A DNA stretch of 64,000 nt from Asterionellopsis glacialis (Eukaryota; Bacillariophyta; Plagiogrammaphyceae; Rhaphoneidales; Asterionellopsidaceae): the NCBI GenBank assembly GCA_014885115.2, contig WKLE02000418.1, positions 1 to 64,000 on the forward strand. The letters run 5' to 3'. Below the pieces are notes generated by a model. That model did no database searches. It was not told the origin of the DNA and worked only from the letters and a program-made list of their open reading frames with translations. The position numbers and the translations under genes were made by a program. Position 1 is the stretch's first letter. Each line of letters starts with the position of its first letter. Of the stretch, positions 209-35,040 are shown piece by piece.

Positions 209-1097
209 GGTATGTCGACTTTATGTTCAACTTTGTTCTAGATTGTGACAAATGGTCAAGCGTATGCAACAATTTTTGGTGCAACTCTGCTGCGATTAAA
301 GAGAATGCTCAACCGTCAACGCCAAGCTCTTTCTTGTATGTAGCAAGGTTTCACAGAAAATCGCAATCTGTACTCGTACCTTGCAAAAAAGAAGAAAATT
401 GAAAAAATGGCGGGTTGGACGACCTTTAGTCTGTACTTTGTCCGTTTTCTTGAAAACATATTATTAAGGTGAGGGTTAATAAAAATATCTTTTTTCCTTC
501 CGTCTGAATTGTCAAGCACTATGCTGGGGAGCTTCTTCTCTACCTCATCCTCCTATCACTACATACTACAACACGTCTGCACCTGAAAAAGTGTCACTGG
601 TAATTAAGTTGATTAGTAGCTATTTACTTCTTACCAATGTCTTGGTAGTCCGACATCACACATTTCGTAAAAAATCCCTTTAAGCGAAGACATATGCTGA
701 CTGGAAAAATATAGCCCATGCGTTGCAAGTGAAAAATAAGTTTGAGTAAAATACATACTATGTATGGGTGAAGACCTTTAAATGACTTTGATTTCGTCTT
801 GAAATGTATATAAAACGTTGGGGGAGTGTGCACACCAGTGTGTTCCGTAAACATGGAATTCCCAATAATATGAAATAAATCGTTTCTTTCAATTGTCTGC
901 ATCGCGGTACTATTTGCATTGTCCTCACGATAGAACATGTGCAGAATCTAGAAAAGCTAAACAATTGACGGGTCATATTCAATGTTATTTTCCCAGTTAT
1001 AATGATTTAAATATTATACAAGTCTTCATGCTCGTTTGGTTTCTTATTCCGTACACTTTGTTTACTTTCTTGATACTCTTTCTTTTAATTATTGGCT
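209..1097. other. Intergenic region without a supported gene
   Basis: It lies upstream of UTP11 and downstream of the glycine-zipper gene, both on the minus strand. Only short overlapping frames without recognisable domains occur. It should contain the UTP11 promoter and the 3' UTR of the upstream gene. I see no RNA gene or repeat. Confidence 0.6.
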
Positions 1098-1583
1098 TTA
1101 TGCAAAGCTAGCGTGGCGAATGCCCCTTCTCGAATCGGATGCTTCATCTTGGACTAATTGTTGTTCCATCTTGCGTACTTTACGCTTTTCTCCAGCTTTA
1201 CAAATTTTACGTGTTGCAGCTGCAGCACCTGCTCCTCCAACGACCATTCCAAGTGGTCCAAGAATGATACCTCCTACAATAGTTCCACCCACTGCGGCAC
1301 CAGCAGTGCGACGTTGTCTTTGCTTCTTCATTTTCTTACGAAGAGGATGGCTCTTGCTCAGAGCTGTATTTTGGGGATTATAAGGGACAACAGCTGTTGT
1401 ATACTCAGAGTACCTTGGTGATGAGTTGACCATTGAAGGTGGCGGCGGAACTGGTGCTGGCTGTTTCTGAAGTTGTGTCTCGTCGTAAGGAACAATGGCA
1501 GTATTGTATGCCGATGTTTTATTCATCTGGGGGGCAAAGGGATCGTGGAAGGTGCTGTCAAATTGTTGGTAGGTGGTAGTCAT
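1098..1583 (-). CDS. Small glycine-zipper protein, function unknown
   Basis: The frame extends upstream to 1697, but I take the ATG complementary to 1581-1583 (MTTTYQQFD) as the likely start, giving 161 aa. The N-terminal 85 residues are polar and rich in Pro, Tyr and Gln, with two related segments (TAIVPYDE and TAVVPYNP). A basic stretch (LRKKMKKQRQRR) is followed by a Gly/Ala-rich hydrophobic segment (AAVGGTIVGGIILGPLG) of glycine-zipper type, then a basic amphipathic tail. Glycine zippers pack in membranes or oligomers, so membrane association is plausible. I recognise no family. The alternative is the 199-residue form starting at 1697. Confidence 0.6.
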   Translation of the reverse strand: MTTTYQQFDSTFHDPFAPQMNKTSAYNTAIVPYDETQLQKQPAPVPPPPSMVNSSPRYSEYTTAVVPYNPQNTALSKSHPLRKKMKKQRQRRTAGAAVGGTIVGGIILGPLGMVVGGAGAAAATRKICKAGEKRKVRKMEQQLVQDEASDSRRGIRHASFA

Positions 1584-1697
1584 GGTTGTCTTGTTAGTTT
1601 GAGAAGTTGTTTGAAAACGAATGAATTTGTTGTGAGTCAACTGAATAAATTTATGATCTGATCTTAGTCTTTGAACCCCTTCGATGGGACTTGACAC

Positions 1698-2492
1698 GTC
1701 GATGGGGTTTAATCTTGGATATTTTGTGTGCGAATGAATTTCGCAACTGTTTTTGTTCTTTGACTCGTTTTTTGTGTCTTGCGCGGACCGTGGACGACAG
1801 GCGCGAATCAGTGGATGGAATTGGCTTTTTTCGTGGGAATGGAGGGAATATTATCGTCTATCAGTAAAGAAAAGCTAAGTCAAGTATTGAATCTGTCTTA
1901 TCGTATAATTCAGTATTATTTCTACAAATTAACCGGAGTATCCATGTGTATCCTTATGTATTGGCACATAGCATAATCGTGTATGTATAAACAATGAATT
2001 TCCAAATTTCTCTACGAATCAGTCGATTATCCCTTCCGCTTGATCCAAGAAATCGATTCATTCGAATCATTTCCCACATTCGTTTGTCACCCCAATCTTA
2101 TCTTGCGTAGCCATGTCCCGATTCCCAGATCTGGATCTTGGGTGCAATCTGCATTAGTTCGTCTTTTGCTGAATCTTGTTTCGACTTGTGATTGATTGTT
2201 TCTTTTGATGTATTTGTTGACAGCAATACTTCTCCACAGGAAAACCGTCGCCACTGAAGTAGGTGATCTGTTTTACGTTGAACACCCAAAGCTAAGCATT
2301 ATCTTAAATATTCGTATTCGACTAAAGGATATCTTGGAATTACAATAGTCCCCAATCAACGTCTCAACGATATTTTACAGGGATCATTTAGCGTGCCATC
2401 AATCAGTTGATTACTCAATAAAGAGTTCTTTGACTGACAACTGAATTCATAGAAGACAAAATATAGGTATATATTGTTTAGAAGGACGCATC
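1698..2492. other. Intergenic region without a supported gene
   Basis: It lies between a minus-strand gene and a plus-strand gene, so it should hold both promoters. The short frames at 1779-1976 and 2098-2289 have no recognisable features and look accidental. A TATA-like run (tataggtatatatt) sits about 25 bases before the next start codon. Confidence 0.5.
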
Positions 2493-3296: not shown

Positions 3297-5486
3297 ATGG
3301 CGTCGCCACAGATCCTGCACATTGCAGGGTGGAGTACTTGTGAGTATCTTTAAGTTGTTGATCTATTGATCTTCATGCTATTATCATTTCCTTGACCTTC
3401 CGCATCGACTGTTTACAATTGCATCATTGGCGCACCGGAACCTCATTCGTCAGTCGTGAGATCCGACATTTTTTTTTTCGGATACGTAGAAAACGTCCGT
3501 GCTATTACCAAGAACAGCGATATATTTTTTTGTCGGGGGAACATTTTCTCCGAGAAAACTTTCCAGTTTCCAACATGTTGTTACATTTTTTATGGCAGTA
3601 TTCATTTGCTACTGATATTATAACACTTTCTCTAACTATCTGACTGCACAATTGTTTTTCTTCAATATTCCATAGGTGGCTTTTATCGAAGAGCTAGCAG
3701 TGTTCTTGGCTCTCTTGCTTTACTTTTCCCAACCAAATTGAAGGTCGTGGATCATGATATGGGTTCTCGTGCAGATTATCGCAGCTGGTTGATTGAGGGA
3801 GGCTTCCGTGACAAGTTTCCGGACTCTCGTGCACACAGTCACTCTTCTTCTCCTTTCGTTTGGGTTGGCGATTCCCAATCAATTGATGATCCTCCCAAGG
3901 ACTATGTTGGTGGTCATGACGACACGCTTGCATGGTGCCGTTCATTTATGAAACCTGCTGAGGCTTCCACCTCAGAAGCCGCTGAACTCATGGCAGAAGA
4001 TGGTCATACAAGCGACCATTCTTATGACTATGATTTGGTTGTTATCGGAGGTGGTTCTGGTGGTATGGCAGCTGCCAAAGAGGCAGCAAGCTTTGGTGCC
4101 AAAGTTGCCTGTCTTGACTTTGTCAAACCTTCCCCTCAAGGAACTACATGGGGATTAGGAGGTACTTGTGTCAATGTAGGTTGCATCCCGAAAAAGCTTA
4201 TGCACCAGGGAGCGCTTATCCGTGAGGGCATTCACCTCGACTCGGAGGCATTTGGTATTTCTTTGGGAGAAACAAACGGTGATGAACCTGTTACTCAACA
4301 CAGTTGGGAAACTATGAGGGAAAACGTGATCAATTACATTCGCGGACTTAACTTCAAATACCGGGTTCGTCTTCGTGAAAAGTCGGTCACATACTTGAAT
4401 AAGCTTGGAAAGTTCGTTGATAAGCATACACTCGAGTGCACAGACAAGAAGGGACGTGTCTCTCAAATTACTTCATCTCGCTTCCTCATTGCTGTCGGTG
4501 GCCGTCCCACTCCACTTGACTGTGAAGGTGGAGAGCTTGCTATTTCATCCGATGATATTTTCTCTCGTGAAAAGAGTCCCGGAAAGACTCTTTGTGTTGG
4601 AGCATCTTATATCAGTTTGGAGTGTGCTGGTTTCTTGGCAGGAATTGGTCTTGACGTGACTGTGGCTGTTCGTAGTATCCTCCTTCGTGGCTTCGATAGG
4701 GAATGCGCTGAACTTATTGGTGACTATATGGAAGACCATGGTATCAAATTTAAGAAGCAAAACCTCCCGAAAAAGCTCGAAAAGGTTGAAGGTGACAAAA
4801 TCCAAGTTACCTTCACAGACGACTCTGTCGATGTGTTCGACACTGTTCTCGTCGCCATTGGCCGTCAGGCAGACACTGACAAACTCGGTCTTGAAAATGT
4901 TGGTATCGAAGTCAACCCTAAAAATAAGAAAATCCCAGCTAAGCTTGAGCAGACCGCCTGCCCAAATATCTACGCTGTAGGAGATGTTATGCAGGGTTGT
5001 CCTGAATTAACTCCTGTTGCCATCCAGGCGGGTCTATTCTTAGCACGCCGTCTTTTCAATGGTGCTACGGAGCCATTGGATTATCAAAACATTTGCACAA
5101 CCGTCTTCACTCCTATTGAATATGCATGTGTTGGACTTTCTGAAGATGATGCTATTGAAAAATTCGGAGCGGAAAACATTGAAGTTTATCACAGTTCCTT
5201 CATGCCTCTTGAGTGGTCATTATCAAGCGGACGCAGTGGTCACAATGCATTTACGAAGGTTATTGTTGACAAAAGCCCAGATGAGAATGTACTTGGTATT
5301 CACTTCGCTGGACCCAATGCCGGAGAAGTTATGCAGGGATATGGTGTTGCAATGAAGGACGGTTTGACGTTCAAGTCGTTAGTGAATACAGTTGGCATTC
5401 ACCCCACTTCATCTGAAGAGATCGTAACGTTGGCGGTTACAAAGAGCAGTGGCGAGGATGCCGCTGCTGGTGGATGCTGAGGTTAA
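3297..5486 (+). CDS. Selenoprotein thioredoxin reductase with a fused N-terminal glutaredoxin-like domain
   Basis: Two exons, 3297-3339 and 3676-5486, are joined by a GT-AG intron (3340-3675). Read through the in-frame TGA at 5478-5480, the product is 617 aa. Residues 1-106 look like a glutaredoxin or thioredoxin fold with one active-site-like cysteine (STCGFYRR, Cys15), a PFVWVGD strand and a YVGGHDD turn. From about 133 it is a high-molecular-weight thioredoxin reductase: FAD motif GGGSGG (139-144), redox disulfide CVNVGC (179-184), the VAIGR and YAVGDV segments, and the catalytic HPTSSEE (His about 590). It ends Gly-Cys-TGA-Gly-TAA, exactly the Gly-Cys-Sec-Gly terminus of animal and algal enzymes, so the TGA is almost certainly selenocysteine. 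It should reduce thioredoxin with NADPH. The order of domains resembles thioredoxin-glutathione reductase, but the N-terminal domain has lost the second CxxC cysteine. An automatic call would stop one codon early and would also miss exon 1. Confidence 0.93.
3340..3675 (+). other. Intron 1 of the thioredoxin reductase gene
   Basis: The donor is T/GTGAGT at 3340 and the acceptor is ATAG at 3675. Removing it joins TG-type phase so that codon 15 becomes TGT (Cys), followed by GGC TTT TAT. The frame then runs open into the reductase. At 336 bases it is the longest intron I find in the window. It is supported by the resulting glutaredoxin-like sequence. Confidence 0.8.
5478..5480 (+). other. UGA selenocysteine codon (recoded stop)
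   Basis: The codon order TGC-TGA-GGT-TAA gives Cys-Sec-Gly-stop. This is the invariant C-terminus of large thioredoxin reductases that contain selenocysteine. Coincidence is unlikely because both the preceding Gly-Cys and the following Gly-stop match the family. Confidence 0.92.
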
Positions 5487-5550
5487 GCCCTTCGAGAACC
5501 CGGTTTGATTTTCAGAATTAAATCTGTAAGTAAACTGGACTCGAAGGGCT
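5486..5550 (+). promoter_or_regulatory. Strong stem-loop just after the Sec UGA
   Basis: Positions 5486-5496 and 5540-5550 are perfect 11-base inverted repeats (AGCCCTTCGAG and CTCGAAGGGCT). A second inner pairing of CCGGTTT with AAACTGG closes most of the intervening region. The stem begins 6 bases after the UGA and overlaps the TAA. That is too close for a usual eukaryotic SECIS, but it is the position of known selenocysteine redefinition elements, which slow the ribosome at UGA. I see no clean SECIS GA quartet in it. The pairing is seen directly; the role is inferred. Confidence 0.6.
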
Positions 5551-5616
5551 ACGTCGGAGAGATTCGACGCAGTGTTTTACAAAATAGGAAAGGCTGAATA
5601 GCAGAATATGATGTTT

Positions 5617-5682
5617 CACGAGAATGACGGTTCAGTTCCTTGTTTGGGATTCCTATCCCCGGGACAATACCTGAGCATCGTG
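5617..5682 (+). promoter_or_regulatory. Candidate SECIS element in the thioredoxin reductase 3' UTR
   Basis: Helix I would be CACGA (5617-5621) with TCGTG (5678-5682). It is followed by a short internal loop and a K-turn-like core with ATGAC (5624-5628) opposite CTGAG (5671-5675), which supplies the tandem G-A pairs. The upper helix pairs GGT with ACC and GTTCC with GGGAC, and an apical hairpin GGGAT-TCCT-ATCCC sits on top. The usual AA of the apical loop is not evident. Some SECIS elements carry CC instead, and a CC occurs about ten bases after the quartet. The location, about 150 bases past the UGA, is suitable. Helix II is imperfect, so confidence is moderate. Confidence 0.5.
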
Positions 5683-5806
5683 TAGACGGACTGTGTCCTC
5701 ATGCTTTTTAATTCGATGTAACTAAAAATACGTAATAATATTTATTATTTGAAACATACTTCTTTAGTTTCGTTTTCATTATTGATTTTGTTTCGATCAC
5801 ATTCCT

Positions 5807-6910
5807 CTATCTGTTTGAATTTAACCAACGTAGCTCACCGTCATGTAGACGTCCAGCCTTCTCCAAATTCCCGTCCAACCATGATAGGTGAAGTTGAACA
5901 TATTCATTGTAAAGTTTTGACATGGGATCGCCATCTTTCAAACTATTAAGTATTTCTCCCGGAAGTACAGCAGACTCTTCCAAATCGGAAGTCTCCTTTT
6001 TCTCAAATCTCGTGGATATATAAAACCTTGACGAAAGCTCCTCTATTCTCTCGTCCTTAACTACCCAACCCATGTTTTGAAGGTCATCATAAAGCTGAAC
6101 AAGGTTTCTAGGCTTGGTATTTGTTGGTTGTAGAATTAGTTGCTGACAATCAAGTCGAGATAATTCTGTATCTGTCAATATTTTCAACATTGTGTTAATT
6201 CCCATTCCTGCAATACATACTGCGTCCGCTTCACCAGGCTGAAGAATTTTCAAACCATCCCCCACTCTGAACTCTACAGGGATTAGGTATTGGTCGGTAG
6301 CATCATAATCGCGTCCTTCTGATTGTTCCTCTGTCTTGGTGCGAAGAATAGAAAGCACTTCCTCGTGGAGCGATATGGCACCATTCTCAAGTGCCTGTTG
6401 AGATACATCCACTCCAGTAACACGATCAAAACAACCTGTGACGGACAAACCTACTGACAAAAGACCATGATCACAGCCAATATCAGCAACACTTATAATA
6501 CCTGTTGTGCTATTTTTGTGACCCTCAACTACCAAATCTACTAAATGTCCCAATCGTCGCCAACTACGCCCTTTTCGAGCTAATACATTAAAGGCATCTT
6601 GGGCAAGGGATATGGGGTCCGGTGAATTATTATTATTTGAAATACTACTTTTTTCATGAAGTGATATTGATCGACGTCCCACAACAATATGTCTCTGTTG
6701 GTTCCATGAGTAGTTTGGTTGATGTTGGCTTCTAAATAATGTTCCTTGGCATAACGGTTTACAGTAATTCTTCCGACATATTCCACTTATTGGCAATGAT
6801 GATGACGTCGAAAAGATCGAAAGTAAAGCGACTGCATGATGCCTTGGTGTTTTCAATCGTCTGACGAAATTTCTCATGGGTACCAAAATTTCCACTTCTA
6901 GCCGCAACAA
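5807..6910 (-). CDS. TrmK-like tRNA (adenine-N1) methyltransferase, probably organellar
   Basis: Single-exon frame of 367 aa. Residues 1-95 are a basic, Ser-rich leader; a second start at Met12 (MRNFVRRLKTPRH) would give a typical mitochondrial or plastid presequence. The remainder matches the bacterial TrmK family (m1A22 methyltransferase in tRNA): RLGHLVDLV, the SAM-binding motif DIGCDHGLLS, GVDVSQQALENG, the basic/acidic FRVGDGLKIL, and the diagnostic AGMGINTM. TrmK methylates N1 of adenine 22 in some bacterial tRNAs, so this protein would be expected to act on organellar tRNA. It is convergent with the selenoprotein gene, and the 320 bases between the stop codons hold both 3' UTRs. The family call is firm; substrate and location are inferred. 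Confidence 0.85.
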   Translation of the reverse strand: MLRLEVEILVPMRNFVRRLKTPRHHAVALLSIFSTSSSLPISGICRKNYCKPLCQGTLFRSQHQPNYSWNQQRHIVVGRRSISLHEKSSISNNNNSPDPISLAQDAFNVLARKGRSWRRLGHLVDLVVEGHKNSTTGIISVADIGCDHGLLSVGLSVTGCFDRVTGVDVSQQALENGAISLHEEVLSILRTKTEEQSEGRDYDATDQYLIPVEFRVGDGLKILQPGEADAVCIAGMGINTMLKILTDTELSRLDCQQLILQPTNTKPRNLVQLYDDLQNMGWVVKDERIEELSSRFYISTRFEKKETSDLEESAVLPGEILNSLKDGDPMSKLYNEYVQLHLSWLDGNLEKAGRLHDGELRWLNSNR

Positions 6911-7380
6911 CTTGGATAAGTTGAATCTGCAGTAGCACTAGAACAAAAGAACACAATTTGACACAACTGCTGTAACTAACACATGACATCGGTCGTCGAT
7001 CAGCCACCACCTGCCACCACCCATCTTCCACATATTTTTTTTGAAAATTTCCAAGAGTTTTTGGGTATCCCTATCTGTGCTGTTTGTTTGTATGTATAAT
7101 ATAATTTATATATGACTCTTATGAGCAGCGAAGTAGTTAACGTGTCTTACATTATCGAATAAAATTAACTGGTCCACAGCTCAGAAAACGGCTGAGACCA
7201 AAACAAAAATTCACTGAATCCCTAAAATGTTTTGATGATCGCTCCTCTGGCTTACCATCACATAATTTAAAACAAGGTGATCATTATCAAAATGGTATTC
7301 CATTTCCTTCTGTTTCGAAAACATCCCACAATGCTCTCCCTTCATTCACTGATATGAGTTCTGGAAGTTTGCACGAAGAG
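6911..7380. other. Upstream region of the TrmK-like gene
   Basis: No gene supported. It has normal CpG content at its left end and grades into the CpG-depleted island near 7377. It should contain the TrmK-like promoter. Confidence 0.5.
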
Positions 7381-10260
7381 CATGTTATCCAACAAAATAT
7401 CTCAAGTTTGATGTGATGCATGTGCTAGCAGTCACTATTCCTCTGATGAAGTTTGATAATGCTAGAACCCTAGCCCAATGAGATAGACAACCTTTAGTAT
7501 GGTGGTGGCATGCCTCTGGCTGGTTGTTGAGTTATGGTATTTTGCACTTGATTTTGAGAATGTCACCATGATGAACACCTCCATTTTCTGTCACAGATGC
7601 CTATCAAACAACAAAGAAACCAAGCAACAATCAACCAAGATATAAACAATTGGATGGGGAATTGAATGATCTCATTGATGCAATTGGATAATAGTATTAT
7701 TGTTGTGTTCTTGTCCAGAAGTTGATCAACATCAAAGTACATCAAAGTTCATTTTACAAAAAAACAGACTTCTCCTCCTTAATTCAGATTTGGAAATCAT
7801 CAACACACACTCAACAATCAATATGAATACTGAGAATTGATTGGTGTCCCTTGATGGTACCAAGAAGAGATTTATTGTCATGTTCTTGTGTAAAAGGAGT
7901 CATCTTGTCATGACAGCACCATGGTTGCTGTTTTTTTTGTTGTTCAATTTGATCAGTCAATTAGATCAGTCTAGTCTGTTTTTTCACTATAATCAGACAT
8001 TATATGGCAGTTATCATCTTTTTATGTAAACTTTCTAAAATTTGAGCTCAATTTAGTTCATCCTTCCATCCAGAAAATGCTGTATTTATGAGCTCTAAAA
8101 AATTTGAGTTCACTTTAGCCTGCTGTCCATCCAAAAAATGAAAAAAAGAATGCCTTTTATGTTCCAACAACAATCCAAGGCTTCAGAGGTATTTTTTATA
8201 TATATGGGAGGAGGTTTGGTGTGGTAGTCCAGTCAAAAATGGGGTTCCAATATTTTGATCTTGGTGGGTTGAGGAGTACATTTTTCTTGGCAATGGGTCA
8301 TATAAACAACCTGGACTTTAAAGGTGGTTTTTGTTATGATGCCTTTGATATATTTTTATAATGCTTTTTGTCTTTCATTTCTAGATACAGAAGGTAAATT
8401 TGGTAACTGCTATGCACATATTGTTTGCAAATTCAGCAATGACATTATTAAAAAACACAATGCAAAGACAAACAGTTTTTATCCAATGTAGCAATTCATT
8501 ATATCAGGAGGTTGGACATATGTACTACAAATGAATAATTTAAAAAAATGGCTTCATTGGTTCATCCAGTAGTTCCAGCCCTAGGTGGGACCTACAGGAA
8601 AAAAGTAACAAATTTCAGGTACCTCTTACTATGTAATGGCTTCCAAAGAAAATTGGTACAAATTTCATCTCATCAATCATGCTCTCTTTCAACTCTGATT
8701 TATTCTGTTTGCTGATTTGTGGTACGCATAATGGCCAAAGGTTCCCAAAGAGGGAATCTAGTACCTAATGCATACATCTTCCACTCATGTATGCATTTGT
8801 GGCTGTCCAGTCCCATGATATTGCACATTTTTTGAATTATGCGTGCTACAAGTCTGCACCTATTTTTTGTCACAATGACAATTATTATAAATCACCCAAA
8901 AACACAACAATAAACCTTTTTAATACTAACAATGATGATACCTTTCAAACCATCATCATTGATTTAGTCAGATGGAATGCTAATAGCCTTTGAAATGGAA
9001 GATTGTTGATTAAATTCAGCCATTTTGTGCAATAACAAAAAAAGCAGCCTTGCCCACAAAACAACCATTAACCATATTTTGGCTCCCAGGTCACCATTTT
9101 TTGTTATTCTTTGACATGGTGGTTTTGACATAGGTATGTTTGATGCATCAGGCATCAGGTGGGTTGTTGGGTTTGTGTTGGTTGATTGTAGCATGTAAAT
9201 GGCATTTTTTGTCATTGTTGATTCACAATCCTAATGAGAAAGTCTTCTGTTGCACTTTCTACAGAAAGACAACCTAGAAACTAATTTAAAATGTGCTCTC
9301 TGCCTTTCTGCAGTTGATTGTTGTTGTGATGATACTAGTGATGGTGCTGCTTCTCATCCCACAAGCAAAAATGTGGATTTTCCAGACAATGTTGTTGCTG
9401 ATTCTTGTTCTCCTGGTTCTATTACTACACTACCACCACAATCATCTAAACCAAATAAGGAGGCTGCACCACCACCATTGATAGATTTGACCGATGTAAA
9501 CTTGACCAAAGGTCTTGCCCAGGAATATGCCACAGATATCATACAGTCATGATCCATGAAAAGGAATACTATGATAACCTTCATAATAGAATGGTAAGGG
9601 GAGAAGAGATGAGAAGTGAATTAGAAAAAGAAAGAATCATGACAAAACTCACTGGTGGACAAATGTTCAAGATTGACATGGTTGCATAGGAAGATACTAT
9701 TCTGCAAGTTCAGTGCAGGAAGAAAAATGATAAGATAACAAATGCAGATCAGATTGTTAAAAATTCAATAGATGGATACAACAGTAGGAAAGGAGATTTT
9801 GAGAGAGTTTTTAATTTTGACAAGAGAGAAGAAAATTACATATTTGCAGAGTTCAAGGATATCATGTATTTTTAAAAGAGCATAAAGGGTGTCAAAGCTG
9901 TTCCTTGGATTGCCTTGAAAACACCTTATGAGTTGACAAAGCATAGGACAAATCTTACCCTTAGGCAATACCTAGAAATGGATAAAGGATATGATGCTGT
10001 GGTGGTAGAATGTGTCCCGAATGCTGTTGTGGAAGGGGAGGTTAGTGAGATCAACAATATATTAATGAATGAAGTTATCATTGTCAAAGCATTTTGTTAT
10101 GTTTGCAACTACCTGTTCTTGTGTTTATTTTAAAGGACAGAAATTTCTGAGAGTTTTTTTTTTGGGGGGGGGGGGGTGATACTGAGGCCTACACAAGTTC
10201 TACAGAGATGTGGTTCAAGGATGTACCATATTTTTTTCTTCTTCAAAAAATGCTGTTACT
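7381..10260. repeat. CpG-depleted AT-rich island, probably decayed and once-methylated transposon DNA
   Basis: Reading line by line I find only about four CG dinucleotides in roughly 2.9 kb (near 8725, 8841, 9489 and 10019), whereas flanking genes have many per 100 bases. TG and CA are frequent. Frames are short and broken. The longest on the plus strand (9250-9552) is a Ser/Pro-rich low-complexity sequence that I do not recognise. A T10-G13 homopolymer tract lies at 10154-10176. The pattern fits long-term cytosine methylation at CpG followed by deamination, as expected for silenced repeats. No transposon protein is recognisable here, so the origin is inferred. Confidence 0.7.
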
Positions 10261-22634: not shown

Positions 22635-23537
22635 GAGGCAAATTGAGTTGCACTTCCATCGCTCTTTACTGCTGTAAGTAATACCTGCTCCTCCGCCTTG
22701 AATTTGTCACAAACATATCCAAGTGCACTTCCGTAGCTCTCCACAGCTTAAAGCACTACATCCCTATTTGCTTTTAGTTCATTAGAGACAAATTGAATTG
22801 CCCTGTATGGCTCGAAGTACCACTTCTTTATCTGCGCGAAGATCATTAGAAACACGGTCAAGATTGTAACTCTGATTTTTCACTACAATAAGTACTAACT
22901 CTTTGTCTGCTTCAAGCACGTCCGAAGCCCGTTGAAGATCTGCAATATTCAAGGGCATCTCCATCATTCTCTACAGTTGCAAGAACTACAATTTTGTCTC
23001 GTAGAAGCTCATCAGATACATGACGAAGTGCATATCTACAATTTCTAAAAGCCACAAGTACTACATCTCTATCTGCTCTAATTTCACCTGAAGCATATTC
23101 AAGGGTATATCCGCGATTCTCTATTGCTGCAGGCACTACATCTTTGTCTCGTCCAACCCCATCAGATGCATATTGAAAGGCATCCCCGCCATTCTCTACA
23201 GACGCAAGCAGTACATCTTTGTCTCGTCGAAGCTCATAATATGCATGACAAAGTGCCTTTCCATTATTTCTCAAAGCCACAAGTACTACATCTGTGCCTA
23301 CTTTCATTTCATCTGAAGCATATTCAAAGGCGTCTGCTCATTCTCTACAGCTGTAAGCACTACATCTTTGTCTTGTAGAAGCTCACCAGATACATGACGA
23401 AGTGTATGCGGATTTCCAGTCATCTTACACGCAGCGCGAATGATGGAGTAGGGTCCTACCGTATTTCTGCCATTACAGATTTGGTTTACATACAGATTGC
23501 TGAGTATTTTGGGGGAGGTTGCGACACCGAGATACAC
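22601..23537 (-). pseudogene. Broken DUF4116 repeat protein gene
   Basis: In three frames on the minus strand I read about ten tandem copies of a 25-residue unit of the form (ALxYASDELRADKDVVLxAVxNNG), which is the DUF4116 repeat. Examples are YALRHVSDELLRDKIVVLAT and YTLEYASGEIRADRDVVLVA. Frame changes occur near 23310 and 22930, and an in-frame TAA lies near 22749 within a unit that otherwise fits. No ATG is found before the first unit; the frame opens with GTG. It ends in a TGA at 22601-22603. Function of DUF4116 is unknown; the repeats are common in large arrays in protists and giant viruses. It lies 63 bases past the stop of the CHAT gene on the same strand. Confidence 0.85.
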
Positions 23538-23600: not shown

Positions 23601-26332
23601 TTATGCCACGTCCTCAAAAACATCTAGCTCTTCCATAACTTGTTCCAAGATATCGCATTCAACTTTTGAAAATGCACAAATAGTTATCTGTTTCAATTCT
23701 TTGTAACCTTTAAAATTTTTTATTGCTTCGACAGCAATACGCAAGGTCCGATTCAAATCTCCACCGGACCTATTTCCTGCAGAAATTAGACTAAATCCAA
23801 CTAAATGATTTAGATGGATGGAACAAAAGATTCACATATAATTTAGCTTCAAGAAAATTTGGCCTATGAAAATGAAAAGCAAATAAAAAAGGAGATTACA
23901 GACGTACCTGCCTCCAACTTATGTTCCTTAGCCCGCTCGAGGCTTGCGTAGTAAGCGCCACGAAGCTTCTCATCTTTTCGTAGTTTTTCTCCCTCACTTT
24001 CACTTTCTCTGTTATAGTAGGTGGGTCCTACCGCAAAGATAATGTAGGGAGCTTTGATGCTGCCGTATGACTTGGTATCAGAACCTATGATTACCGCATC
24101 TCCAGTACTGCAACGTGCCGTCCCCCATTCTGTTTTCACTCCTGTGATTTTCGAAACATCATTTTTCAATTCATTGCCACCAGCTGTCTCTACGGCCATA
24201 TTGACTCCACCGCAAAGTGGGTGGCATGATTCATTTGTTGCGCAGACAATTCCAACACTTTTCGAAGATTCATATGAAAAGTCTACGATTGAGGCACCTC
24301 TTGATATCTTCAAAGAAAATGAGGAGTTGTTCGAGCTGGCGGGGTCATTTTTTGTTCTTTCACTAGGATTTGTCAACATGTCAGGTGTGGTGAACTGCTT
24401 AGAGCCTCCACTGGAATGAGATTTGATAATTTTCTTAAGCCTTTTTATTTCCATCTTTAGCATTTTGATTTCTCGGTCTTTTTCATCTCCCGGTTGATTT
24501 GGATTTTCTGTTACTACCATTGCTCGATTCACATCCATTTCTTTCTTTATACGAGCTTTTATCTCTGCGGCTTCTGCATATTGATCGCTTTCATAAAATT
24601 CGTTATACTTTTTTTCAAGATCTGATTGGTATGGAAGTTTTTCGCGGAACTTCTTCAATTCTTCCAAGAGCTCTGCTAGATCTGTAGCCTTCAGGAATTG
24701 GCCTTCCACGGCGCATGTGTTTTTGTCCTCTTCTATCTTCCCGATTTCTAGCTCGAGATGGTGGCGGGTGTCGATACGTCTGCTGACTTCAGGTTTTTCT
24801 TCGATGGTGATGAGTGCTTGGAATTCTTCTTTTTTTATGCTCCGTGCCTTTTTATGTATATCTACTGGAATGCCATTTCCAACAGTGCACCAAATTTTTT
24901 TACTTCTTTCAGACATGAACTCCCTCTCTCCTTGTGGGTCAATATCCTGAACTATTATTCCCCATCCTTTCCGCATTTCAAGTTCTGATGCTCGTGTCTT
25001 TGAAATTATCCTCGTAAACAATCGTGCAGAATGTTTGAGATCCAAAGGAGGGAGTACAACGTTTTCGTAGTTTTGAACCTGCTCAAGCACGAGCAATTTT
25101 GAGGGAGGACAAATAGTCATGACTTTCACATCCTTCGTTTGTTCAAATATGTTTCCAACAATTTGTTCTAACTTCTTGATAGCATCCAAATTTAAATTTC
25201 TGGCGTCAATAACCAGCAAAGCCCGTTGTTTGTCTAGCGCTTTTGAGACCTTGTTACAATACTCAACTAAAGCATACTCTGCAGCATTCTCCGTGACAAC
25301 TTGAAAGAGCTTCGGAAATTCGCTATAGGGCGTGCCGTTGTACTGAGCACCATTTTGCCTGTCGTCAAGCCAAATTATAGGTTTTATGAGGAACTGACGA
25401 GGTCGTTCATATATGTACTTACAGACAGCTTTGGCAAAGCTAGACTTCCCTATCCCACGCGGTCCAGTAATCTGGACAAATCGAGTTGTCCTGATTTTAA
25501 AAGCTTTGACCATCTCTTCTTGCCTCCCCCAGAAAATATCTGGTGGCTCATAAGGGAGTTTCAAAGAATCAATCTTGGGGCGTTTAATAGAACTTTTTTG
25601 GAAAAATATATCGACATTGTGGTAGTCTTCTCCTTTCTCCTTTGGGTCAGGTAAAAGAATTATTTTTTTAAGTTCAGATTTGCTGATGTATTGAAAATTG
25701 ACTTCCCGTGCAGCATTGAAAGACTTGAGAAGACTGTAACCACAAGCAAGACCATGATAGAAATTTCTTGCAAACTCAACCACGGCTTTATCGTTTAAGT
25801 TATTATTTTTTTTGCAACAAAGAACATGAGGAACACCAGCTGCAAGAATTTCTCTGCCCATATCTTCAGAGTCGCACATGGACAAAAATACAACCTTGAC
25901 CATGCCTTTATGATTCTGGAAAAGTTTAGTCATGTCACTGCCGAATACGTGGTGTCGGATCCCATCACCTTGCTCACTTTCAAAACAAGCAAATGATCCA
26001 TATTTCTTATTAAATCCACCATGAGCTGAAATCTGTACAACAGAATTTTGACCGTATCTTAGAATATAGCTCATATCAGACATGCTGCAACCAGAAAAGT
26101 CTAATTCGATGTCATTATCAGAGCGATCGATTACCTCCTGTACAGCATCAGTCAAGAGATCTTTTTCCCACTCCAAGTCGGGAGCATCTTGTGGTCTTAT
26201 AACGCCCGATCTATCAATATAAGCAACTGGCTTTGCTTGGCATACTGTAATACGTCCAAACTTTTCCTTTCCCATCGTAGTTAGTAGAGTTCGAGGCGTG
26301 TTTGTGGTTTTTATGTCAAATAGGTGGATCAT
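23601..26332 (-). CDS. CHAT protease-STAND NTPase-macrodomain protein (NLR-like)
   Basis: Exon 1 is 26332-23908 and exon 2 is 23800-23601, with a 107-base GTACGT-TTTAG intron; 874 aa (855 if Met20, MGKEKFG, is the start). Residues about 30-215 resemble a CHAT caspase-like domain: QISAHGGF with candidate catalytic His104, VVFLSMCDSE with candidate Cys153, and ARNFYHGLACGYSLLKSF. Residues 265-500 are a P-loop STAND/NB-ARC-like NTPase with Walker A GPRGIGKSS (290-298), Walker-B-like ALLVID (371-376) and a VGNGIPVDI block like GLPL. Residues 510-640 are charged coiled coil. From about 676 to 874 there is a macrodomain: IVCATNESCHPLCGGVNMAV, GDAVIIG, YIIFAVGP, and after splicing VGFSLISAGNRSGGDL, which fits the ADP-ribose-binding loops. 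The intron is needed to complete this fold. Protease, NTPase switch and ADP-ribose reader in one chain suggest a cell-death or immune sensor. Domain calls are firm; function is inferred. Confidence 0.85.
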
Positions 26333-33689: not shown

Positions 33690-35040
33690 AGGCTGCTCAC
33701 CAATACATGCACAAAATGTGGCACTAGTACTGGATCCAGAAACAGGAAATGTGAGTCCTTATTTTCATGTCAAATTTGACCCATGCTTTCACATGGTTAA
33801 AGAATGGAAAAAACAAGATTTCAATTCATCAATGTGTTCGTTAAATGCAGGATTTGTAAGCCACACTACCCCTCCTTTCAAATGGAAGGAAACAACAAAC
33901 CCTTCACAAGAGGCTGCCAATGATGAAAATGTATTAGAAGCACCAAATGGGTTAGAATACAGGAAACAGAGCTACAGCAAAACACAGCTGCCACTCCATC
34001 ATCTAATGATAACAACCAATCTCCTGATATTCTCAAACACAACAGAACCACACCTACACATCATATTACCCAGCCGGAGGGAGGTATTATCAACCCACAC
34101 CCATCAACACAGCAACTACTGTTCCTCCACCTGCTCCACATTGATCACCTTGCACCTGTAAACCCACATAATGACTCATCAATACCACAATGGTTGAGAT
34201 GTAAGAAGTAACTAGCAGAAATGTTGAAGGTGAGATATTCTGCATTAAGGCCATCTATCCTGACTCCCAAGTCAATGATAACATACCCTGACCATCTATC
34301 AAAACAACAGCTAATCCAGATATGATGTATATGCACCCAGCTCTCAAAGAACCTGATTGAGCTGAATTCATCAAAGCAATGGAAAAGGAATGGGAGGATC
34401 ATTCAAAAATGGCAATTATGAAATCCTTTTACAGTCACACTTACCAGAAGGAGAAGTGGTACTACCTGCACTACCAGCAGTGTGGCAAATTTAGTGCAAA
34501 CATGATATCAAAACTTGCAAAATAAAGAAATACAAAGCAGGACTCAACATGGATGGCTCACAAATGCAACAAGGTGTACACTACAATCAAAGTTATGCAC
34601 CAGTTGCCACATGGAACTCCATTAAAACATTATTGATCCTTTCATTAATCAACAGAAGGCACACATTTCCCCAAGCAGAAGTTGAGGAAGGTAGAAACTT
34701 ATTCATGCAAATTCCAAAAGGATTTGAAATAGAAGAAGGAAACTCTAAAGACTATTGTCTTAAACTTAAACAAAATCTATACCACCATAAGCAAGCCGGA
34801 CGAGTATGGAATCAACATCTCGCCAAGAAATTCATCAACGAGGTAGGCTTTACACAATCCAAAGTAGACGAATGCGACTTCTACAAAGGCAAATCGATGT
34901 ATGTTTTATATACGGACGACTCCATCCTAGTAGGACCCCGTGAGAAGGAGCTGAAAGAAATCACGGACGAAATGAAACAATGCAAACTCGACATCACCAT
35001 TGACGATGGACTTTAAGACTTCTTAGGAGTAGAAAGTGCT
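33690..35040 (+). mobile_element. Ty1/copia (CoDi-like) retrotransposon remnant
   Basis: Three pieces of one pol gene are in order on the plus strand. At 33718 there is VALVLDPETGNVSPYFHVKF, the integrase-to-reverse-transcriptase linker typical of diatom copia elements. At about 34290-34410 there is TANPDMMYMHPALKEPD-stop-AEFIKAM. At 34549-35016 the reverse transcriptase has YAPVATWNSIKTLLILSLIN, IPKGF, KQNLYHHKQAGR and VLYTDDSILVGP, in which the catalytic YVDD is YTDD. In-frame stops separate the pieces, one of them just after DDGL and before DFLGVE. RNase H, gag, protease and the complete integrase core are not visible. The element is dead. The right edge lies 39 bases from the right copy of the long direct repeat. 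Confidence 0.88.

Follow-up and report, generated by a model that had tools for sequence, protein, structure and literature searches.

We report a gene on the minus strand of a 64,000-nucleotide stretch of DNA from the diatom Asterionellopsis glacialis (positions 1 to 64,000 of contig WKLE02000418.1, hereafter the window) that joins on one predicted chain an N-terminal CHAT protease-like domain, a STAND NTPase, a coiled-coil linker and a C-terminal macrodomain. The candidate His-Cys dyad of the CHAT domain and the P-loop of the NTPase are both intact, and the same domain order recurs in a full-length paralogue, C930, and in two metagenome proteins. We propose, with about even confidence for and against, that the product is a diatom NLR-like (STAND) receptor in which ligand sensing by the macrodomain switches on the CHAT protease. 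The diatom label of the assembly is sound because the genome carries a silicon transporter (PF03842, E 7.3e-82).

Results

The sequence-only reading that had singled out this gene placed its reading frame, intron, motifs and domains where we find them. An 825-codon open frame holds CHAT, STAND and most of the macrodomain without interruption and runs into a small GT..AG intron (23907-23801); joining 26332..23908 to 23800..23601 yields 874 codons followed by a stop. The 874-residue protein proposed earlier therefore stands as a join, whereas its length probably has to be reduced to 855 residues, because similarity to C930 begins at the second Met, the probable translation start. Residue numbers below refer to the 874-residue protein unless 855 is stated (His104 is then His85, and Cys153 is Cys134). 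Alternative acceptors such as 23777 were rejected, since the coding sequence of C930 takes up again at VGFSLIS, the codons with which the second exons of both genes start; the C930 intron, 95 nt long, agrees in the codon that it splits and in phase. The claim that splicing completes the macrodomain is borne out by archaeal AF1521, to which the spliced protein aligns across the intron (E 8.6e-9) through query residue 846 of 855.

C930 matches the window gene end to end, at 43% identity by BLAST (residues 17-808) and 44% over 837 aligned residues, with an identical domain order, so that the gene is not the lone instance it had been taken for. Identity is 45% in CHAT, 46% in STAND, 28% in the linker and 56% in the macrodomain. 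By the Nei-Gojobori method (NG86), nonsynonymous divergence (dN) is 0.48 overall and synonymous divergence (dS) is saturated, with values of 3.8 and 3.4 in two of the five regions and none computable in the other three. With synonymous sites saturated at such a dN, both copies have been kept by selection, and the sequence comparison shows C930 to be a full-length paralogue under purifying selection.

These features bear on the possibility of a prediction artefact, that is, two adjacent genes misjoined or a gene in decay. Such an account could point to the exon join, read here from genomic sequence alone, and to low-GC DNA with a reverse transcriptase (RVT_2) fragment about 8 kb off; it is contradicted by the 825-codon frame spanning CHAT, STAND and most of the macrodomain, by a 44%-identical paralogue that shares the exon structure and by two metagenome proteins that hold the same order on one chain. 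Artefact or chance is largely refuted by C930, by the intron that it shares and by the shuffle controls given below, and we regard it as extremely improbable.

The CHAT domain had been proposed at residues 30-215, and Pfam places it at 61-204 (E 1.4e-4; 21.9 bits, slightly below the 24-bit cut-off). The fold comparison of the window model identified a CHAT fold, and when the domain is compared with the seven further CHAT copies identified in this genome, scores run from 35 to 197 bits, far above the best shuffle (8.7 bits; one copy shuffled 200 times, 142 scored). The columns of His85 and Cys134 in the 855-residue numbering, the candidate pair of the earlier reading, fall opposite a His and a Cys when SAVED-CHAT (8tl0) is aligned. 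When all 14 CHAT copies were compared, none being dropped, both residues were kept in ten, including the window gene and C930, neither in four (C296a, C296b, P0001 and P0003) and a single one in none; the two are therefore kept or lost jointly in every copy, the pattern that a catalytic pair would be expected to show.

The predicted P-loop switch is likewise in place, with Walker A (GPRGIGKS) and Walker B (LLVID) motifs between the output and sensor modules, together with GNGIP, which we take to be the STAND GxP motif. Several Pfam ATPase models match from residue 265 on, the best being AAA_16 (272-343, E 5.3e-4), all of them below cut-off, and plant NLR and Avs4 entries appear near the top of the fold search lists, after the CHAT match (library 'pdb' for the window model; 'pdb_via' for both models, window exon 1 and P0001). 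Seven of the 14 family copies retain the Walker A Lys, among them half of the eight genome copies (window, C930, C1350 and C1082), so that not all members are intact switches. A PADLOC mads_8 match (E 2.3e-5) was set aside, as it spans just 60 residues around the P-loop. The order CHAT-STAND-coiled coil-Macro thus agrees with the profiles, the fold comparison of CHAT and STAND, the paralogue and the two metagenome relatives.

Pfam Macro matches residues 698-819 well above its cut-off (E 1.8e-13; 50.9 bits against 22), within the segment assigned earlier (676-874), and among solved structures the closest relatives by sequence are AF1521, which bears the name ADP-ribose glycohydrolase, and MacroD1; NCBIfam also returned macrodomain models, with scores far below their cut-offs. 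The window macrodomain scores 223 bits against that of C930 and 55 bits (30% identity) against that of P0001, compared to at most 4.9 bits for shuffles (200 made, 160 scored). Among the three Macro loci found in the genome (window, C930 and C209), the free macrodomain C209 shows no similarity to the window domain above shuffles (4.2 bits). By these scores, the window and P0001 macrodomains are specifically related.

In the window macrodomain the NAAN motif reads CATN, with its Asn preserved, and the SAG phosphate loop is preserved too; the GDIT Asp and the full GGGVDG loop are absent. We presume all of these to mediate ADP-ribose contact. The loop reads GGVNMAV in the window protein and GGVDWAV in C930 and is lost in P0001 and P0003; what we take to be the Asp of the MacroD hydrolase loop is thus replaced by Asn in the window and kept in C930. 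The ligand contacts of the Thoeris macrodomain were also used in this comparison (PMC11204291; this and all papers cited below are represented by excerpts). We suggest from these residues, with modest confidence, that the domain is a binder rather than an eraser. The opposite view is that of an ADP-ribose eraser or DNA-damage factor, in which the macrodomain hydrolyses PARP-made ADP-ribose marks under regulation by STAND-CHAT and there is no immune receptor. The two PARP loci in the genome, the relationship to AF1521 and MacroD1 and the C930 loop, close to the presumed hydrolase loop, all speak for hydrolysis, but the Asn of the window protein at the presumed MacroD-enzyme Asp and the loss of the loop in P0001 and P0003 speak against it, and other family members bear other modules in the place of the macrodomain, which fits a sensor slot. 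We consider an eraser unlikely.

The search identified at least seven genes with at least eight CHAT copies in this genome, both counts being lower bounds, and the macrodomain is borne by the window gene and C930. C1350 has a long C-terminal region that no Pfam model matches, C1082 has a hydrophobic C-terminal tail, and C1358 is a further member. C853 has LRR repeats (Pfam, below cut-off) ahead of CHAT-STAND and, directly upstream, an Arm-repeat frame that possibly belongs to the same gene, and C296 carries WD40 repeats between two CHAT copies, both without the dyad and the Walker A Lys, a possible pseudo-protease receptor. Sequence comparison thus shows the CHAT-STAND-type genes to be a family whose members differ in their accessory modules. 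Beyond them, eight NB-ARC matches on C480, C1323, C1386, C699, C965, C1220 and C906 (frames of 543-2578 codons), none at a CHAT locus, make up a wider STAND protein set in the genome.

Outside this genome, a search with the single sequence found no relative among 8000 scored candidates, and alignment searches, each of 8000 scored candidates, returned the same six proteins (P0001-P0006). P0001 and P0003, from JGI metagenomes, combine CHAT, STAND and Macro in one protein, the Macro score of P0003 (20.0 bits) being slightly below the 22-bit cut-off. P0002, P0004 and P0005 are LRR-CHAT-STAND proteins, and P0006, from a transcriptome record assigned by taxid to Durinskia baltica, a dinoflagellate that harbours a diatom as endosymbiont, has CHAT-STAND preceded by a region resembling LRR proteins of the PDB. 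In the tree, a cluster with starred support unites C853 with P0002, P0004 and P0005, so the LRR-CHAT-STAND architecture is conserved too; C296a, C296b and C1082 form long branches. The window and P0001/P0003 pairs require two changes for Macro, and one change in 16% of the bootstrap trees, so that the tree favours neither a single macro clade nor two origins, a single origin being possible. The search for the same order yielded C930 in this genome and P0001 and P0003 outside it; because the searches were held to 8000 scored candidates, other diatoms are poorly sampled and absence elsewhere is unproven.

Table 1. Coordinates of the gene, its domains and related loci (window positions unless a contig is named; residues of the 874-residue protein)
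Feature	Coordinates	Strand	Remarks
Whole gene	23601..26332	-	probable start codon 26275 (855 aa); alternative ATG 26332 (874 aa)
Exon 1	23908..26275	-	coding part from probable start
Intron	23801..23907	-	107 nt; GT..AG ends; donor CAG/GTACGT (/, exon-intron junction)
Exon 2	23601..23800	-	macrodomain end (VGFSLIS..) and stop
Stop codon	23601-23603	-	
CHAT domain	25688..26245	-	residues 30-215
Candidate catalytic His	26021..26023	-	His104 (His85 of 855)
Candidate catalytic Cys	25874..25876	-	Cys153 (Cys134 of 855)
STAND/NB-ARC-like NTPase	24818..25549	-	residues 262-505; P-loop, LLVID Walker B, GNGIP motif
P-loop GPRGIGKSS	25439..25465	-	
Helical and coiled-coil linker	24308..24817	-	residues 506-675; lowest identity to C930 of all parts (28%)
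Macro domain	23604..24307	-	residues 676-874; intron-split
C853 locus (L011)	3916-9773	-	Arm-repeat frame, then LRR-CHAT-STAND frame
C296 locus (L013)	4437-8774	+	single 1445-codon frame; WD40 repeats between two CHAT copies
C1420 TIR protein (L035)	250-1962	-	PADLOC ThsB1 model, E 6.9e-27 (uncontrolled, see text)
C807 TIR protein (L036)	715-2007	-	PADLOC ThsB1 model, E 1.8e-14 (uncontrolled, see text)

No viral or prokaryotic relative was found by tblastn in the viral_contigs and genome_contigs scans, which rest on few peptide patterns that distant relatives can escape. A foreign composition was rejected, the third-position guanine-plus-cytosine (GC) content of the gene (GC3, 0.380) lying inside the range of seven measured neighbours (0.297-0.464); its overall GC content (0.411) is slightly lower than theirs (0.423-0.462). 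Adjoining the gene downstream, a 141-codon frame on the same strand (22915-23337) with four DUF4116 repeats (Pfam E 7.4e-41) is possibly the remnant of a DUF4116 gene. On the 5' side lies the Copia-type reverse transcriptase fragment (34495-35013, plus strand; RVT_2 E 8.5e-21), in a stretch where GC content falls to 0.35-0.38 in 4-kb blocks (28 to 36 kb).

Discussion

Under the receptor reading, the C-terminal macrodomain would bind an ADP-ribose-type ligand, which could be an ADP-ribosylated protein or a derivative of ADP-ribose in free form. This would release the STAND NTPase for nucleotide binding and oligomerisation, and the oligomer would gather the N-terminal CHAT domains into an active caspase-like His-Cys protease that would cut targets in the cell, probably in response to stress or infection or in the course of cell death. 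ADP-ribose sensing and proteolysis would then, we infer, be linked on one chain.

Two sets of results weigh against this reading. The more important one, and the chief result against a simple protease, is that P0001 and P0003, the sole same-order proteins found outside this genome, lack both dyad residues, that is, the Macro-bearing architecture persists there without the protease. The other comes from AlphaFold, which left the macrodomain unmodelled: the predicted local distance difference test score (pLDDT) is below 50 throughout 611-789 for window exon 1, where the macrodomain is incomplete, and in P0001 it is mostly below 50, reaching 50-67 near the C-terminus. Because AlphaFold gave no macrodomain model, the assignment of this fold rests on sequence.

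The loss of the dyad would be natural if the protein were an NLR-like scaffold, with CHAT as an oligomerisation or adaptor module, the macrodomain recruiting it to ADP-ribosylated targets and catalysis incidental or partly lost. Four of the 14 CHAT copies are without the dyad, and the two same-order metagenome proteins among them still have the P-loop Lys. Moreover, conflict systems of a related type often carry caspase-like domains that are inactive, as are about 70% of the effector-position caspase domains of one such system (PMC7159879). However, the window gene and C930 have kept the dyad despite a 55% difference at aligned CHAT positions, and we consider a scaffold rather unlikely.

The receptor reading draws on several precedents. 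Plant and animal NLRs (NRC2, other resistosomes and Apaf-1), to which the fold search gave matches, likewise have an NB-ARC/STAND switch between output and sensor. The protease of Apaf-1 is on a separate chain, and the sensor position of NLRs holds LRR or WD40 repeats, whereas the diatom protein carries its protease itself and has a macrodomain in the sensor position. SAVED-CHAT (8tl0), unlike the diatom protein, is bacterial, and its sensor is presumably SAVED, without a STAND NTPase. The CHAT-STAND pairing is indeed known, as the sequence-only reading had it, from fungi, where NLRs carry CHAT proteases as N-terminal output modules and a TPR-bearing CHAT protease activates a gasdermin (PMC12881547, PMC10197012). 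The fungal CHAT-NLRs beside gasdermins resemble the diatom protein in using a caspase-related CHAT protease as the output of an NLR-type receptor, but the accessory modules named in the excerpts are repeats (ANK, TPR, WD40) rather than a macrodomain. A gasdermin search was empty, and its controls were likewise silent.

In bacteria, the Thoeris macrodomain is the receptor of TIR-made nucleotides, and in type II ThsA (TM-macro) it receives an ADP-ribose-type signal that triggers oligomerisation, as we propose here; its output, however, is a transmembrane domain, without STAND or protease (PMC11204291). Type IV Thoeris also ties an ADP-ribose-derived signal to proteolysis, in that a TIR signal activates a caspase-like protease, but it is a bacterial operon, and the excerpt that tells of it mentions no STAND-Macro chain (PMC12847820). 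Two eLife surveys name macro domains among the variable parts of bacterial conflict systems, and one of them caspase-like domains as well (PMC8195603, PMC7159879). Among the matches listed, no paper in the open-licence literature dealt with CHAT receptors of diatoms or with a protein of the CHAT-STAND-Macro type, in keeping with the claim that no algal system with this order has been described. What is known, then, is CHAT as an NLR output in fungi and, in bacteria, macrodomain nucleotide receptors and TIR-to-caspase-like signalling; what is new is an ADP-ribose-reader-type macrodomain joined to CHAT-STAND in one diatom protein, a variation on known kinds of parts.

The PARP proteins and two bacterial-type TIR proteins of this genome are possible makers of the ligand. 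The TIR_2 search located the latter on contigs C1420 and C807, and both retain, in an SSDYVM(T/K)EE motif, a Glu that we take to be catalytic. Both match the ThsB1 model (Table 1), with scores that lack a control showing lower scores for other bacterial-type TIRs. The C807 protein has a weak NCBIfam match to Thoeris type III ThcB4 (E 2.6e-5; 23 of 220 bits), and that on C1420 has neither an NCBIfam match nor a PDB sequence match at E 0.01. The genome-wide search, with the TIR_2 model only, found no TIR gene on C179, the contig of the window. Because the ThsB1 model comes without a control and neither TIR gene shares a contig with the window gene, we treat a Thoeris-like pathway as no more than a lead. 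A one-chain equivalent of Thoeris in a eukaryote, in which a TIR-made messenger produced on infection would be received by the macrodomain and lead to CHAT-run regulated algal death, seems to us distinctly improbable.

Diatoms die in an organised manner, with caspase-like activity, at bloom collapse and under viral attack. The CHAT-STAND-Macro protein is a directly testable candidate for starting this caspase-like death, and unicellular algae may couple ADP-ribose signalling to proteolysis much in the manner of the cell-death systems of bacteria and animals. If the receptor reading is true, eukaryotic microbes would have reached an ADP-ribose-to-protease logic that is used by bacteria.
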